Shown one piece after another: positions 1 through 13,030 of a stretch of DNA of 56,735 nt. The notes under the pieces are model-generated. The model saw only the letters and a program-made list of their open reading frames with translations. It was not told the DNA's origin and ran no database searches. A program made the position numbers and the translations under genes. Position 1 is the first letter of the stretch; the number at the start of each line of letters is the position of its first letter. Where the stretch lies: NCBI RefSeq assembly GCF_003337735.1, contig NZ_QPJY01000002.1, positions 626,784 through 683,518 of the forward strand, given 5' to 3'. The stretch is from Thioalbus denitrificans (GTDB taxonomy: Bacteria; Pseudomonadota; Gammaproteobacteria; DSM-26407).

Positions 1-345
1 CACCCGCCGGCAATCCCATCCCACCGCAGGAGCGCCATCCTGGCGCGACGGGCACGGCCCGGTCCAGGCATCGCGGCTGGAAGCCGCTCCTACGGGAGGG
101 GGGTGAACAGGGCGGCCGGCGACCACCCGCCGGCAATCCCATCCCACCGCAGGAGCGCCATCCTGGCGCGACGGGCACGGCCCGGTCCAGGCATCGCGGC
201 TGGAAGCCGCTCCTACGGGGGGGGTGAACAGGGCGGCCGGCGACCACCCGCCGGCAATCCCATCCCACCGCAGGAGCGCCATCCTGGCGCGACGGGCACG
301 GCAGCCATTCCGGTGCGACACCCCCTCATCCGTAGGAGCGGCTTC
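1..345. repeat. Tandem array of ~122-bp REP-containing units (3 copies)
   Basis: Three consecutive near-identical units, with the motif CCGCAGGAGCGCCATCC recurring at about 121-123 bp. Each unit joins two short palindromes: one reading GGAGCGCCATCCTGGCGCG and the other CGCGGCTGGAAGCCGCTCC. A GC-rich spacer links them. The array is cut by the left edge of the window, so the true copy number is unknown. A single REP of the second type (331-354) follows and abuts the RAYT gene. The same two palindromes build the array at 12.25-13.03 kb. Confidence 0.85.
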
Positions 346-4030: not shown

Positions 4031-4603
4031 GTAGCGCTCGATCGCGGCGGGGGAGCCCCTCCCGACAGGTGCAGATTCATCTGCACACACCATCTTTCAT
4101 CGTAGGAGCGGCTTCCAGCCGCGAATCGGCCCGCGCCCCCCACCACCGTAGGAGCGGCTTCCAGCCGCGAACGGAGCTGGCCACAACGCCCATCGCGCCA
4201 GGATGGCGCTCCTACGGGGGGGGTGCCCGGACCGGGGCCGTGCCCATCGCGCCAGGATGGCGCTCCTACGGGGGGTGCGCCCGGACCGGGGCCGTGCCCA
4301 TCGCGCCAGGATGGCGCTCCTACGGGGGGGGTGCGCCCGGACCGGGGCCGTGCCCATCGCGCCAGGATGGCGCTCCTACGGGGTGGGGAACCGCCCACGC
4401 CCCGGTCCGGCACAACCCTCCACCCCCGAAGGTGCAGATTCATCTGCACAGACACCAGCGCCCGGCCGAAGCCTGTGGGAGGCCCGCCCCCGGGGCGATG
4501 GGGCATTGACCGAAACCTATAGGCTCACCAACACCCGGTCCGATCAAAGCCCCCCACACAAAATCCCGTCAATCCAGTAAATCCTGTCTATTCCCCTGTC
4601 CCC
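4031..4603. repeat. Intergenic REP block with four-copy tandem array
   Basis: Non-coding gap between two convergent genes. In order it holds: a GTGCAGAT/ATCTGCAC palindrome near 4070; two GGAGCGGCTTCCAGCCGCG palindromes (about 4103-4125 and 4149-4171); four tandem copies of a 54-56-bp unit starting near 4191, 4245, 4299 and 4355, each with CGCCAGGATGGCGCTCC; and one composite cassette (about 4430-4590). That cassette ends in the CCTGT-rich direct repeats immediately beside the stop of the next gene. Confidence 0.85.
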
Positions 4604-6641: not shown

Positions 6642-7489
6642 GGTTAAACCGTTCCTGTCGTTGTCCCGGTTCCGCGCCGTTGGTCAGGAGCTGCGGCCGG
6701 CAATGAAGGGGTGTGACCTCCATCGCGGACTGCCCGCCCGCTATTCGCTAGCTTGAGATGTTGGGGTATTTTGCCATTAAACACCCCAGATTGTGTCTGA
6801 ATTGTTTCTGAAAGGGTAATCTTCCGCCGAAACCGCCCCCGGCGGCCCGGCCAAAGCCTGTGGGAGGCCCGCCCCCGGGGCGATGGGGCCCTGGCCGGAG
6901 CCCCCTCCCCCCAGCCCCCTCCCGCAAGGGGAGGGGGAGCAAAGCATGCCGTGCCCCGGGCGTCTGCCTCAGGCTTTCTACTCCCTCCCCCTCAGGGGGA
7001 GGGTTGGGGAGGGGGTGAACCACATCCAGTCTCTACCACCCGCCACACATCCCGTGGGCACCCACGCCCAGCACAAACATCAATAAAAATCCCGTCAATC
7101 CTGAGAAATCCTGCCTATCACCAGAAAATCAATCGCCGCGAGGGCGCCCCTTCCTGTAGGTGCAGATTCATCTGCACACCCCGGCGGCCCGACCGAAGCC
7201 ACCAGACAGAAATCCCGTCAATCCTGTAAATCCTGTCTATTCAAAACCAATCGCCGCGAAGGCGCCCCTCCCGTAGGTGCAGATTCATCTGCACACCCCG
7301 GCGGCCCGGCCAAAGCCTGTGGGAGGCCCGCCCCCGGGGCGATGTGACCAGGTCGGAGCCGGAGTGTCCGGCCTGCCACTGCCCCACCGAAGCCACCAGA
7401 CCGAAATCCAGTCAATCCTGTAAATCCTGTCTATTCAGACAAAAAGAGATTCGCGGCGAGCTGTCGCGCGGAGAGGGTGATGCGGGAAT
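6642..7489. repeat. Intergenic repeat block (848 bp)
   Basis: 6642-6835 shows no gene and no recognised repeat. From about 6838 the gap is entirely repeat-derived. A REP hairpin (6850-6885) comes first, then a ~190-bp element with two opposed GGGGGAGGG palindromes (6900-7090). CCTGT direct repeats follow, then two cassette copies (7130-7240 and 7250-7440). The last abuts the 3' side of tRNA-Arg. A weak hairpin followed by TTTTT on the minus strand (about 7441-7475) could terminate the tRNA transcript. Confidence 0.75.
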
Positions 7490-7566
7490 TGGCGCCCCGG
7501 ACACGATTCGAACGTGTGACCTGCCCCTTAGGAGGGGGCTGCTCTATCCAGCTGAGCTACCGGGGC
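7490..7566 (-). tRNA. tRNA-Arg (anticodon CCU)
   Basis: The minus strand folds as a complete cloverleaf. The acceptor stem is GCCCCGG paired with CCGGGGC. The D-arm is GCTC...GAGC. The anticodon stem GCCCC/GGGGC carries loop CTCCTAA, so the anticodon is CCU. The T-arm ACACG/CGTGT has loop TTCGAAT. The discriminator is G and CCA is encoded. 77 nt, reading AGG codons. Confidence 0.96.
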
Positions 7567-7747: not shown

Positions 7748-7778
7748 AAAAAAAAACCGGTCCTGGGCGGACCGGTTT
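7748..7778 (-). terminator. Rho-independent terminator of the small RNA
   Basis: Read on the minus strand, arms AAACCGGTCC and GGACCGGTTT form a 10-bp perfect stem around a 5-nt loop, followed by an uninterrupted run of T (nine in all, overlapping the stem end). No gene on this strand other than the candidate small RNA lies immediately upstream. Confidence 0.88.
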
Positions 7779-7834
7779 CAAAGTACGTCTTGGGGGTAGA
7801 TAAGCACGGTGCACGGCATAACCAAGCATCGTGC
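7748..7834 (-). ncRNA. Candidate small RNA with its own promoter and terminator
   Basis: An ~87-nt transcription unit on the minus strand lying 182 bp beyond the 5' end of tRNA-Arg. A near-perfect sigma-70 promoter (7840-7867) predicts a start at about 7834, and a 10-bp hairpin followed by nine U residues ends it at 7748. The predicted RNA begins with a possible stem (AGCACG pairing with CGTGCU), continues with an unstructured C-rich linker containing UCUACCCCCAAGACG, and ends in the terminator. No open frame with a ribosome site fits inside. It matches no RNA family that I recognise. The architecture suggests a trans-acting regulator using the C-rich linker to pair with G-rich ribosome sites; that role is inference. 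Confidence 0.7.
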
Positions 7835-7839
7835 TAGGA

Positions 7840-7867
7840 ATTATAACCTCCCCTGCCCGAATGTCAA
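7840..7867 (-). promoter_or_regulatory. Consensus sigma-70 promoter of the small RNA
   Basis: Minus strand: TTGACA (7862-7867), 16-bp spacer, TATAAT (7840-7845). Both hexamers match consensus exactly, which is rare in this GC-rich window. It points at the 87-nt unit, not at arsS, which is on the other strand. Confidence 0.85.
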
Positions 7868-8039: not shown

Positions 8040-8999
8040 ATGCTCGATACCCGTCCCTACCTGAGCGAAACCGACTTCCCGACCATTCGCCGCAAGGCCC
8101 TGGAACTTCTCCAGGTCAACCTCGGCTATCGCTGCAACCAGCGATGCCAGCACTGCCACGTCAACGCCGGCCCGAACCGGACCGAGGTGATGACCCGCGA
8201 GACCCTGGACCAGGTTCTCGAATACCTCGTCAGGTCCGGGGCGCACACCCTCGATCTGACCGGCGGAGCGCCTGAGCTCAACCCACATTTCCGCGACACG
8301 GTGCGCTTCGCCCGCGAGCGGGGTATCCGGGTCATCGATCGCTGCAACCTCACCATCCTCTCCGAGCCTGGCCAGGAGGACCTGGCGCGATTCCTCGCCG
8401 ACCAGGGCGTCGAGGTGGTGGCCTCGCTGCCCTGCTACCTGGAGGAGAACGTGGACGGCCAGCGGGGCAGGGGCGTCTATCAGGGGAGCATCACCGGCCT
8501 GCGCAAGCTCAATGCCCTGGGTTACGGCCAGCCGGACAGCGGCCTGCTGCTCAACCTGGTCTACAATCCCACCGGCCCCTATCTCCCCCCGCCACAGGCC
8601 GACCTGGAGGCCGACTACAAGCGTGAATTGTCAGAACGTTATGGCGTTAAATTCAACCATCTTATGACAATCACGAACATGCCTATCGCCCGCTTCGGCA
8701 GCACCCTCCTCTCCCGGGGTCAGTTCGACGAGTACATGGTGCTGCTGCGTGACAGCCACCAGGATGCCAACCTGGCCTCGGTCATGTGCCGGAACCTCCT
8801 CAGCGTGGACTGGCGTGGCTACGTCTATGACTGCGATTTCAACCAGATGCTGCACCTTCCTGCAGGATTGGAGAAACATCCGCTGCACATCACTCAACTC
8901 CGCCGACGCACCCTGGAAGGCGCCCCCATCCGGGTGGGGGAACACTGCTACGGCTGCACCGCCGGCAACGGCAGCAGCTGCGGCGGCGCGCTGAGCTGA
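8040..8999 (+). CDS. arsS: Arsenosugar biosynthesis radical SAM protein ArsS
   Basis: A 319-residue radical SAM enzyme that attaches the adenosyl group to methylated arsenic in arsenosugar synthesis. The 4Fe-4S motif CxxxCxxC is C32-C36-C39 in RCNQRCQHCH. DLTGGAPELNPHF is the GGE-like SAM-binding region. The C-terminal CYGCTAGNGSSCGG supplies auxiliary cluster cysteines, and CRNLL and VYDCDFNQ add further cysteines. Some family members use selenocysteine; all positions here read as ordinary cysteine. ATG 8040 gives the usual family length; the frame is open upstream but unsupported. It belongs with the TIGR04282/04283 pair at 1.1-2.4 kb. A reversed CCTGT repeat cassette begins right after its stop. 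Confidence 0.93.
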   Translation: MLDTRPYLSETDFPTIRRKALELLQVNLGYRCNQRCQHCHVNAGPNRTEVMTRETLDQVLEYLVRSGAHTLDLTGGAPELNPHFRDTVRFARERGIRVIDRCNLTILSEPGQEDLARFLADQGVEVVASLPCYLEENVDGQRGRGVYQGSITGLRKLNALGYGQPDSGLLLNLVYNPTGPYLPPPQADLEADYKRELSERYGVKFNHLMTITNMPIARFGSTLLSRGQFDEYMVLLRDSHQDANLASVMCRNLLSVDWRGYVYDCDFNQMLHLPAGLEKHPLHITQLRRRTLEGAPIRVGEHCYGCTAGNGSSCGGALS

Positions 9000-9180
9000 A
9001 TTGTTCTTAGGAATGGACAGGATTTACAGGATTTCACAGGATTTTTTCCTCCGGGTTGAGGGGCTGAGGGTGCAGAGGGTTCAGGGGTTTTGGCCTGGGT
9101 TCCATCGCCCCGGGGGCGGGCCTTCCACAGGCTTCGATCGGGCCCCGGGCCCAAACCTTTATCCTTTATCCCTTATCCCC
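9000..9180. repeat. Dispersed cassette copy between convergent genes
   Basis: Starts 13 nt after the arsS stop with ACAGGATTTACAGGATT direct repeats, then the CGCCCCGGGGGCGGGCC hairpin module near 9105-9122. No coding capacity. Confidence 0.8.
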
Positions 9181-10344: not shown

Positions 10345-10787
10345 GATGAAAGCACTCCGCGGAGGGACCGGTACTTAAAGTGCCACAGGGCGGGAACAGG
10401 TGGAACCTTCCGCCGACTGTCCGCCGCGAGGACGCGCCTCCCGTAGGTGCAGATTCATCTGCACACCCCGGCGGCCCGATCGAAGCCTGTGGGAGGCCCG
10501 CCCCCGGGGCGATGGGGGCATTGGCCGGAACCCATGGGCTCACCAACAGCTGGCCCCGCCCAAGGCCCCCACACAAGAATCCCGTCAATCCTGTAAATCC
10601 TGTCCATTCAAAACCAATCGCGGCGGGGGCGCCGCGCCCAAGCCCCGCGGCGGCCGGGTGTTGCATCCGGGACCCGTCGCCGGTGTACCATCCTGACGAG
10701 CTTTTTGCCCCGGATATCGCCGTAAACACCGTCGGCGGGATCCCGATGATCGGCAGAAATGGCAGCCACCGCACAGGCAGCGTACCC
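10345..10787. repeat. Cassette copy between divergent genes
   Basis: A full cassette runs from about 10430 to 10620: GTGCAGAT/ATCTGCAC palindrome, REP hairpin, and CCTGT repeats. Here it lies at 5' ends of both neighbours, an exception to the usual 3'-end placement. 10345-10425 and 10650-10787 must hold the promoters of the two divergent genes, but no convincing hexamers stand out. Confidence 0.7.
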
Positions 10788-11405
10788 ATGACCGATCCCG
10801 TCCAGTGCGAATTCATCAGCTGGAACCGCTGCGCCGGGCTCGGCCTGCGGCTGGCCCGGCGGGTGGTGGAATCAGGCTACCGCCCGACGCTCATCGTGGC
10901 GGTGGGCCGCGGGGGCTGGATGCCCGCCCGCATCCTCTCCGACCGCCTCGGACAGATGAACCTCGCCAGCGTGAAGATCGAGCACTACCGTGCCGCCCAC
11001 AAGGCGCCGGAAACCATCATCCGCTATCCCCTCCCCGCGACCGTGGACGGCGAGCGGATCCTGCTGGTGGACGACGTGAGCGACAGCGGCGACACCTTCG
11101 TGGCGGCGCTCGCCCATCTCAGGAGCCGGGGCGAGCCGCAGGCGGTGCGGACCGCCGTGCTCCACCACAAGACCGTCTCCCGCCACACCCCGGACTACTT
11201 CGCCGCCCGGGTGGTGAAGTGGCGCTGGATCATCTACCCCTGGGCCGTCACCGAGGATCTCGTCACCCTGCTGCGGGAGGCTGGCGCCGATCCCGACGAT
11301 CCGGCCCGGGCGGGAGAAATCCTCCGCCGACGCCACGGCCTGCGCATCCCGCGGGCACTGCTGGCGGAGGTGCTGACAGCCCTGCGGGAAGGGGTGTGGA
11401 AATAG
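10788..11405 (+). CDS. Phosphoribosyltransferase (COG2236-like)
   Basis: A 205-residue type I phosphoribosyltransferase-fold protein. ILLVDDVSDSGDTF near residues 91-104 is the PRPP-binding loop, and LIVAVGRGGWMPARIL near residue 35 is the pyrophosphate loop. The set resembles predicted xanthine/hypoxanthine-type transferases; the base used cannot be told. ATG 10788 is chosen; an in-frame ATG at 10746 would add 14 unconserved residues. The gene stands alone and is followed by two tandem repeat cassettes. Confidence 0.82.
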   Translation: MTDPVQCEFISWNRCAGLGLRLARRVVESGYRPTLIVAVGRGGWMPARILSDRLGQMNLASVKIEHYRAAHKAPETIIRYPLPATVDGERILLVDDVSDSGDTFVAALAHLRSRGEPQAVRTAVLHHKTVSRHTPDYFAARVVKWRWIIYPWAVTEDLVTLLREAGADPDDPARAGEILRRRHGLRIPRALLAEVLTALREGVWK

Positions 11406-11853
11406 CCCGGCGGCCCGAACGAAGCCTGTGGGAGGCCCGCCCCCGGGGCGATGGGGCATTGGCCGGAACCCATGGGCTCACCAACACCTGGCCCCGCCCA
11501 AGGCCCCCCACACAGAATCCCGTCCATCCTGTCCTTTCAAAACCAATCGCCGCGAGGGCGCGCCTCCCGTAGGTGCAGATTCATCTGCACACCCCCGGCG
11601 GCCCGACCAAAGCCTGTGGGAGGCCCGCCCCCGGGGCGATGGGGCATTGGCCGGAGCCTATGGGCTCACCAACACCTAGCCCCGCCCAAAGCCCCACACA
11701 CAGAATCCCGTCAATCCTGTAAATCCTGTCCATTACTAAAACCGCGACGGCCCGGCCCACTGGCTCCCCCCCTTTCCTGTCCCTTTCCCTCCCCACCTGC
11801 TATGAAACTATTCATATGCGGAGACCCTGCATGCGCCAGACAAGGACCCTGCC
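11406..11853. repeat. Two tandem cassette copies plus a short dyad
   Basis: One partial (11405-11540) and one full (11545-11740) cassette copy in the same orientation. Upstream of the next gene, TATGAA and TTCATA form a dyad with a 4-bp gap (11801-11816), a possible operator or -10 region. No other gene is visible. Confidence 0.65.
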
Positions 11854-12246
11854 ATGACCACCGAAGCCGACCCCATCGAGGGCACCTGGTACGAGAGTCC
11901 TCTCAAGAGCCGCCCCTTCCAGGTGGTGGCGGTGGACGAGGCGGCGGCGATCGTGGCCATCCAGTACCACGACGGCGAACTGGAGCCGCTGGATCTGGAG
12001 GCCTGGTACGAACTGGACCTCGAACCCATCGAGCCGCCGGAGGACTGGACCGGACCCCTCGATGATGTGGAGCTGGACGATCTCGAGCTCACCGACAGCC
12101 AGATGAGCGATGAGGACTGGCTCGAGCCCGTGGGCGAGCATGCCCGCCCCCGCGGCAACGGCGCCGAGCCGCCCGAGGAGGAGGAGCTCGACGACTGGGG
12201 GGAAGGGCGCCCGGAGGAAGAGCCGCTGGACGAGGACCGCTATTGA
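11854..12246 (+). CDS. DUF6763 family protein
   Basis: 130 residues, strongly acidic. The N-terminal part (about 1-60) has IEGTWYESPLKSRPFQVVAVDE and VAIQYHDGELEPLDLEAWYEL, a small beta-rich domain recognised as DUF6763. The remaining half is a low-complexity Asp/Glu tail ending in EEEPLDEDRY. No membrane segment or catalytic motif is seen and no function is known. The six-copy REP array begins directly after its stop. Confidence 0.7.
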   Translation: MTTEADPIEGTWYESPLKSRPFQVVAVDEAAAIVAIQYHDGELEPLDLEAWYELDLEPIEPPEDWTGPLDDVELDDLELTDSQMSDEDWLEPVGEHARPRGNGAEPPEEEELDDWGEGRPEEEPLDEDRY

Positions 12247-13030
12247 GCAGCGATCCGGGCATCGCGGCTGGAAGCCGCTCCTGCGGGGGTGGGCGTGACC
12301 AGGGTGAACCACCACAAGCGGCCAACCTCCCCCCCACCGTAGGAGCGCCATCCTGGCGCGATGGGCACGGCCCCATCCGAAAATCGCGGCTGGAAGCCGC
12401 TCCTGCGGGGTGGGCGTGACCAGGGTGAACCACCACAAGCGGCCAACCTCCCCCCCCCACCGTAGGAGCGCCATCCTGGCGCGATGGGCACGGCCCCATC
12501 CGAAAATCCCGGCTGGAAGCCGCTCCTGCGGGGGTGGGCGTGACCAGGGTGAACCACCACAAGCGGCCAACCTCCCCCCCCCACCGTAGGAGCGCCATCC
12601 TGGCGCGATGGGCACGGCCCCATCCGAAAATCGCGGCTGGAAGCCGCTCCTGCGGGGGTGGGCGTGACCAGGGTGAACCACCACAAGCGGCCGACCTCCC
12701 CCCCCACCGTAGGAGCGCCATCCTGGCGCGATGGGCACGGCCCCATCCGAAAATCGCGGCTGGAAGCCGCTCCTGCGGGGGTGGGCGTGACCAGGGTGAA
12801 CCACCACAAGCGGCCAACCTCCCCCCCCACCGTAGGAGCGCCATCCTGGCGCGATGGGCACGGCCCCATCCGAAAATCGCGGCTGGAAGCCGCTCCTGCG
12901 GGAGTGGGCGTGACCAGGGTGAACCACCACAAGCGGCCAACCTCCCCCCCCACCGTAGGAGCGCCATCCTGGCGCGATGGGCACGGCCCCATCCGAAAAT
13001 CCCGGCTGGAACCCGCTCCTGCGGGGAGGG
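12247..13030. repeat. Six-copy tandem array of a ~123-bp unit with paired REPs
   Basis: The motif GTAGGAGCGCCATCC recurs at 12339, 12462, 12586, 12709, 12832 and 12955 (spacing 123-124 bp). Every unit contains the palindromes GGAGCGCCATCCTGGCGCG and CGGCTGGAAGCCGCTCC. They are joined on one side by a short GGGCACGGCCCCATCCG linker and on the other by a spacer that includes CCACCACAAGCGGCC and a C-tract varying from about 7 to 9. The copies are nearly identical, with the outermost carrying more changes. Long open frames across it are artefacts of the repeat. Confidence 0.93.

Follow-up and report, generated by a model that had tools for sequence, protein, structure and literature searches.

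Between a tRNA-Arg gene and a divergent ArsS-like gene of the gammaproteobacterium Thioalbus denitrificans lies a short intergenic segment whose minus strand the original prediction read as an unannotated small RNA (sRNA) gene, which raises the questions of whether such a gene is there, to what kind it would belong, and on what its RNA would act. Every element that had been described for this 87-nt unit bounded by promoter and terminator was found in place, and the features on which the argument turns are the following, numbered along the window, that is, the whole stretch of 56,735 nucleotides analysed:

7862..7867, minus strand: -35 hexamer TTGACA, located by pattern search, the matching promoter pattern being single in the genome
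7840..7845, minus strand: -10 hexamer TATAAT, separated from the -35 hexamer by a 16-bp spacer
7748..7834, minus strand: predicted sRNA of ~87 nt, delimited by promoter geometry and terminator
7803..7835, minus strand: 5' hairpin GCACGAUGCUUGG..CCGUGCACCGUGC, predicted in both the minimum free energy (MFE) and the centroid structure
7780..7803, minus strand: linker UUAUCUACCCCCAAGACGUACUUU, predicted unpaired and proposed as seed, with CCCCC at 7796-7792
7778..7819, minus strand: frame of 13 codons, MPCTVLIYPQDVL and a stop, with no Shine-Dalgarno sequence, ending just before the terminator stem
7753..7779, minus strand: intrinsic terminator stem-loop, from fold prediction
7748..7756, minus strand: nine-U tract, read from the sequence
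7490..7566, minus strand: tRNA-Arg (CCT), the downstream flank on the same strand, ~181-182 bases past the end of the unit
8040..8999, plus strand: radical-SAM/DUF3641 (ArsS-like) gene, the divergent upstream flank

The claimed consensus sigma-70 promoter is indeed one, its hexamers agreeing with the consensus at 12 of 12 positions around a spacer of 16 (minus strand, 7867-7840), and promoter-like sites averaged 0.3 when the region was shuffled. The pattern TTGACAN{16,18}TATAAT has a single match in the whole 4,140,277-base genome, the promoter of this unit, and none when run backward as a control over the same 4,140,277 bases; about 0.04 matches are expected by calculation from composition (67.5% GC of a sampled 448 kb). 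A looser scan for promoter-like sites (at least 9/12) and strict terminators 40-200 nt apart, covering 448,384 bases of the organism's own sequence (67.5% GC), found 56 of the former and 16 of the latter, and the sole pairing at that distance is again this unit. The strong terminator with nine U that had been predicted is present as well; its stem counts 11 pairs, six of them G-C, followed by the T tract, and folded alone it yields -18.4 kcal/mol. Judged as a sequence, this is a very strong sigma-70 promoter, from which we infer its activity, and the sRNA is probably highly expressed. An unannotated RNA of a gammaproteobacterium that has few sequenced relatives would carry the strongest-looking sigma-70 promoter of that organism, and may for this reason rank among its most abundant.

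From the promoter geometry the start was placed within 7835-7832, hence a predicted RNA of ~87 nt, present in a single copy in the genome. Its predicted fold consists of a 5' hairpin of 31-33 nt, a 24-nt linker, and then the terminator. The hairpin, initially called no more than possible, is in fact strongly predicted, and the C-rich linker, described as single-stranded, is mostly unpaired in the predicted ensemble. For an 88-nt version of the RNA the predicted folding energy is -35.1 kcal/mol, whereas shuffles average -19.0 +/- 3.0 (z -5.4), and none of 200 shuffles folded as well. A chance or dead arrangement that is never transcribed would fit with the unit's conservation not being seen in a same-genus genome (see below), but a perfect promoter that is single in the genome, where composition predicts ~0.04, and the coincidence of promoter, terminator and fold make such an arrangement very improbable.

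The absence of coding potential noted originally is nearly right: no Shine-Dalgarno sequence is present, yet the 13-codon frame exists. A reading in which the product is a small toxin or this peptide of 13 residues (MPCTVLIYPQDVL) draws on a frame that is open and stops just ahead of the terminator stem, but the start codon of the frame lies within the 5' hairpin, a frame of this length is easily had by chance, and its IYPQD likeness to beta-proteobacterial coding hits stems from a common 14-mer that was itself chosen as the search pattern. The frame is probably not translated, and a coding function is of the slightest probability.

The unit lies outside genes, between tRNA-Arg (CCT) and the ArsS-like gene, and it has its own promoter and intrinsic terminator, as is expected of an autonomous intergenic sRNA. 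The proximity of the tRNA suggests that the promoter might instead serve tRNA-Arg(CCT), the hairpin and terminator then belonging to a 5' leader of that tRNA's transcript that is attenuated or processed. The tRNA is on the same strand and starts 182 bases past the U tract, and the leader explanation keeps its footing because nothing above 7/12 precedes tRNA-Arg, this being the best promoter between terminator and tRNA; the strength of the terminator in the way (-18.4 kcal/mol, nine U) counts against it, as do an unusually long leader and the lack of any antiterminator fold among the unit's low-energy structures. Moreover, tRNA-Ala of the same window likewise has a weak recognisable promoter (8/12), so that a weak tRNA-Arg promoter is unexceptional here. 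A tRNA leader is accordingly judged improbable, and the unit is read in what follows as a gene of its own. Elsewhere in the window, degenerate repeats occupy many intergenic gaps (4097-4580, 6880-7440, 9000-9155, 10380-11700 and 12240-12985), where several reading frames show recurring translations such as PIAPGWRSYGG and RPGGGPPTGFGRA.

Relatives of the RNA were sought by several routes. No convincing match came from 369 genomes of the class, one of them from the same genus, when these were searched at the nucleotide level, and none came from plasmids or phages. Conservation in relatives, which the original prediction had proposed as a check, was thus not found in the sole same-genus genome available, an assembly 87% complete from which neither an ArsS-like gene nor tRNA-Arg CCT was recovered. 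A covariance model built only from the window RNA (R1) returned 20 hits where ~18 were expected, about chance level; most of them, and L002, resemble terminators at gene ends and have no promoter in the proper position. A scan of 84,980 genomes for the linker plus a T run gave 24 loci with no evident relative among them, about half being beta-proteobacterial coding sequence that shares the IYPQD codons and four being copies in one Synoicihabitans genome. Other candidates were likewise set aside: L012, from the same genus, looks coding; L116 is a weak match with no correctly spaced promoter; and L032, downstream of tRNA-Met, matches part of the hairpin but in a different context and was taken as chance, its window-matching part being conserved in a single near relative (L047) and drifting in L048 and L049. 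Two observations were made in passing: L116 carries at 105-233 (minus strand) an RtT RNA (RF00391, 64.8 bits) that follows immediately on tRNA-Gln, and in L076, from a Thalassovita genome, CCTACCCCCAAGACG stands directly before a terminator between genes (near 6213-6168, minus strand), probably by chance.

Rfam, in agreement with the statement that no family was recognised, holds no family that the unit matches at its threshold. The best sub-threshold scores, of 18-20 bits, include suhB/mmgR (RF00519, 20.0 bits; gathering score 41), the Betaproteobacteria toxic small RNA or "double-hairpin" family (RF02278, 18.5 bits; gathering score 50) and anti-hemB (RF02837, 18.3 bits; gathering score 49.5). 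They were discarded as evidence of kinship and are background, because ordinary gene-end terminators used as controls attain 20-22 bits on the same group of models. Likenesses of architecture nonetheless help to place the RNA. Burkholderia double-hairpin RNAs, seen experimentally, have a 5' hairpin, a terminator and CU-rich unpaired stretches (PMC5688073); the unit shares with them its shortness, the 5' hairpin plus terminator, and an unpaired C-rich stretch of the sort proposed to act over ribosome sites (PMC5688073), but lacks a CU-rich repeat pair. Anti-hemB likewise combines a C-rich unpaired stretch with a following terminator, although its true members, such as L104, appear to hold the C-rich stretch in a hairpin loop. 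A C-rich seed and a terminator also characterize mmgR/suhB and the CCUCCUCCC "cuckoo"/ar14 RNAs, one ar14 member of which acts at the start site of an mRNA to silence it (PMC10746234), but the CCUCC motif is missing from the window unit, and CCUCCUCCC, which cuckoo/ar14 RNAs carry in unpaired regions, is absent from it. In sX13 of Xanthomonas, 4C/5C motifs act on G-rich motifs near translation starts (PMC3771888), the same C-run seed logic, but sX13 is a 115-nt, Hfq-independent RNA with three hairpins bearing C-rich loops, whereas the unit has one C run in a linker. By every sequence test applied the locus appears to be an sRNA gene of a known kind that fits none of the Rfam families searched, and by analogy its best reading is an RNA of double-hairpin type with a C-rich seed. 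The claim of an unannotated sRNA gene is in this sense well supported, by a promoter unique in the genome, the terminator, a significant fold, the intergenic position and the lack of an Rfam match.

How such an RNA would act can be sketched from its anatomy and its analogues. The very strong sigma-70 promoter would drive a trans-acting RNA of ~87 nt, the intrinsic terminator would give it a terminal U tail of the Hfq-binding sort (Hfq is encoded in the genome), and the stable 5' hairpin together with the terminator would shield its ends. The unpaired linker UUAUCUACCCCCAAGACGUACUUU would serve as the seed: by pairing, which is a common form of control, with G-rich stretches close to start codons, it would repress translation of the target mRNAs. 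Analogy with sX13 and the double-hairpin RNAs lends plausibility to the original claim that the C-rich linker pairs with G-rich ribosome sites, but the claim drew no support from a test of linker energies at the ribosome-binding-site (RBS) regions of ~350 genes sampled from the genome with rough gene calls, where the mean energy was no better than that of shuffled or reversed linkers. The top predicted target, ccmC, whose ribosome site is covered by 12 contiguous pairs at -21 kcal/mol, is not significant, since 79 of 100 shuffled linkers found an equal or better best target. Given this parity with shuffles across the ~350 sampled genes, pairing is a mechanism that we infer; a narrow seed acting on few targets would be compatible with the null result on these RBS regions, and regulation by pairing to mRNAs is likely. 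The lack of RBS preference, the very strong promoter and a stable short RNA would suit a sponge or protein-binding RNA that titrates Hfq, another sRNA or a regulator and does not pair with mRNAs. Such a role seems unlikely, given a single C run, no GGA loops and no repeated protein-binding motif, and an open C-run linker that resembles known seeds (cf. PMC3771888, PMC5688073). We consider it reasonably probable that the locus is an autonomous gene whose product is a small regulatory RNA of ~87 nt, non-coding and trans-acting, with a strong promoter and a C-rich pairing seed that represses translation. If expressed, it would offer a short, clean model for C-run seeds beyond the known families.

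A further set of RNAs came from three other gammaproteobacterial genomes, as unannotated units with no Rfam match at threshold:

L090, 1575-1501, minus strand: candidate RNA unit with promoter and terminator
L108, 1532-1465, minus strand: candidate RNA unit with promoter and terminator
L114, 1534-1606, plus strand: candidate RNA unit with promoter and terminator, and a hairpin with a UUUCCUCCCUU loop

L090 is the only R1 hit with a correctly placed promoter of at least 9/12. It stands apart as a unit with a promoter of its own, TTGACT-N17-TATAGT (10/12), the linker ACAUCCCCCAAGACCCAUGUUGA and a terminator, and has in common with the window the linker core GCUUA..U.CCCCCAAGAC..A..UUGA. L108 was reached by a search with L090, a likeness for which the promoter accounts in part. 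L114 came from R2, a model built on the window unit and L090 together, promoter included (E 1.6e-5 per genome; 377 genomes), and its neighbours are gor on one side and a gene for an Aer-like PAS chemoreceptor on the other. L090 is one gene away from gor, whose product is 73% identical over the part compared, and L108 adjoins the Aer-like gene, 58% identical across the PAS region; the names gor and aer-like are our reading of translations. This common neighbourhood, independent of the sequence model, argues that the three form one family. The window unit resembles them in its promoter, in an intergenic RNA with a C run (~65-75 nt in the three), in its terminator and, for L090, in CCCCCAAGAC, but it sits beside tRNA-Arg and the ArsS-like gene, with no gor or Aer-like neighbour. 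A model built from these three and leaving the window unit out (R3), run against 448 kb of the organism's own sequence, ranked the window unit as top hit, yet at 13 bits and E 2.6, which is not significant. Owing to this score and the differing neighbourhood, kinship of the window RNA with the set is only possible. That all four belong to a single, so far undescribed sRNA family of gammaproteobacteria, marked by a C-run seed and by CCCCCAAGAC in the two most alike, in which only seed and terminator were kept and 5' hairpin and neighbourhood changed, is a tentative and rather doubtful proposal; the gor/aer-linked set nevertheless gives a testable comparative handle. Among the loci met in these comparisons, L104 (genome G150) carries two tandem anti-hemB RNAs (RF02837) on the minus strand, at 1774-1705 and 1570-1503, above threshold at 53.4 and 52.1 bits; by eye, the second at least shows a hairpin with a C-rich loop and then a terminator. 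The promoter regions of L090, L108 and L109, the last preceding an rnfB-like gene, have in common TTGACTATTTT..GGATT, which we take to resemble an IscR type-1 site.
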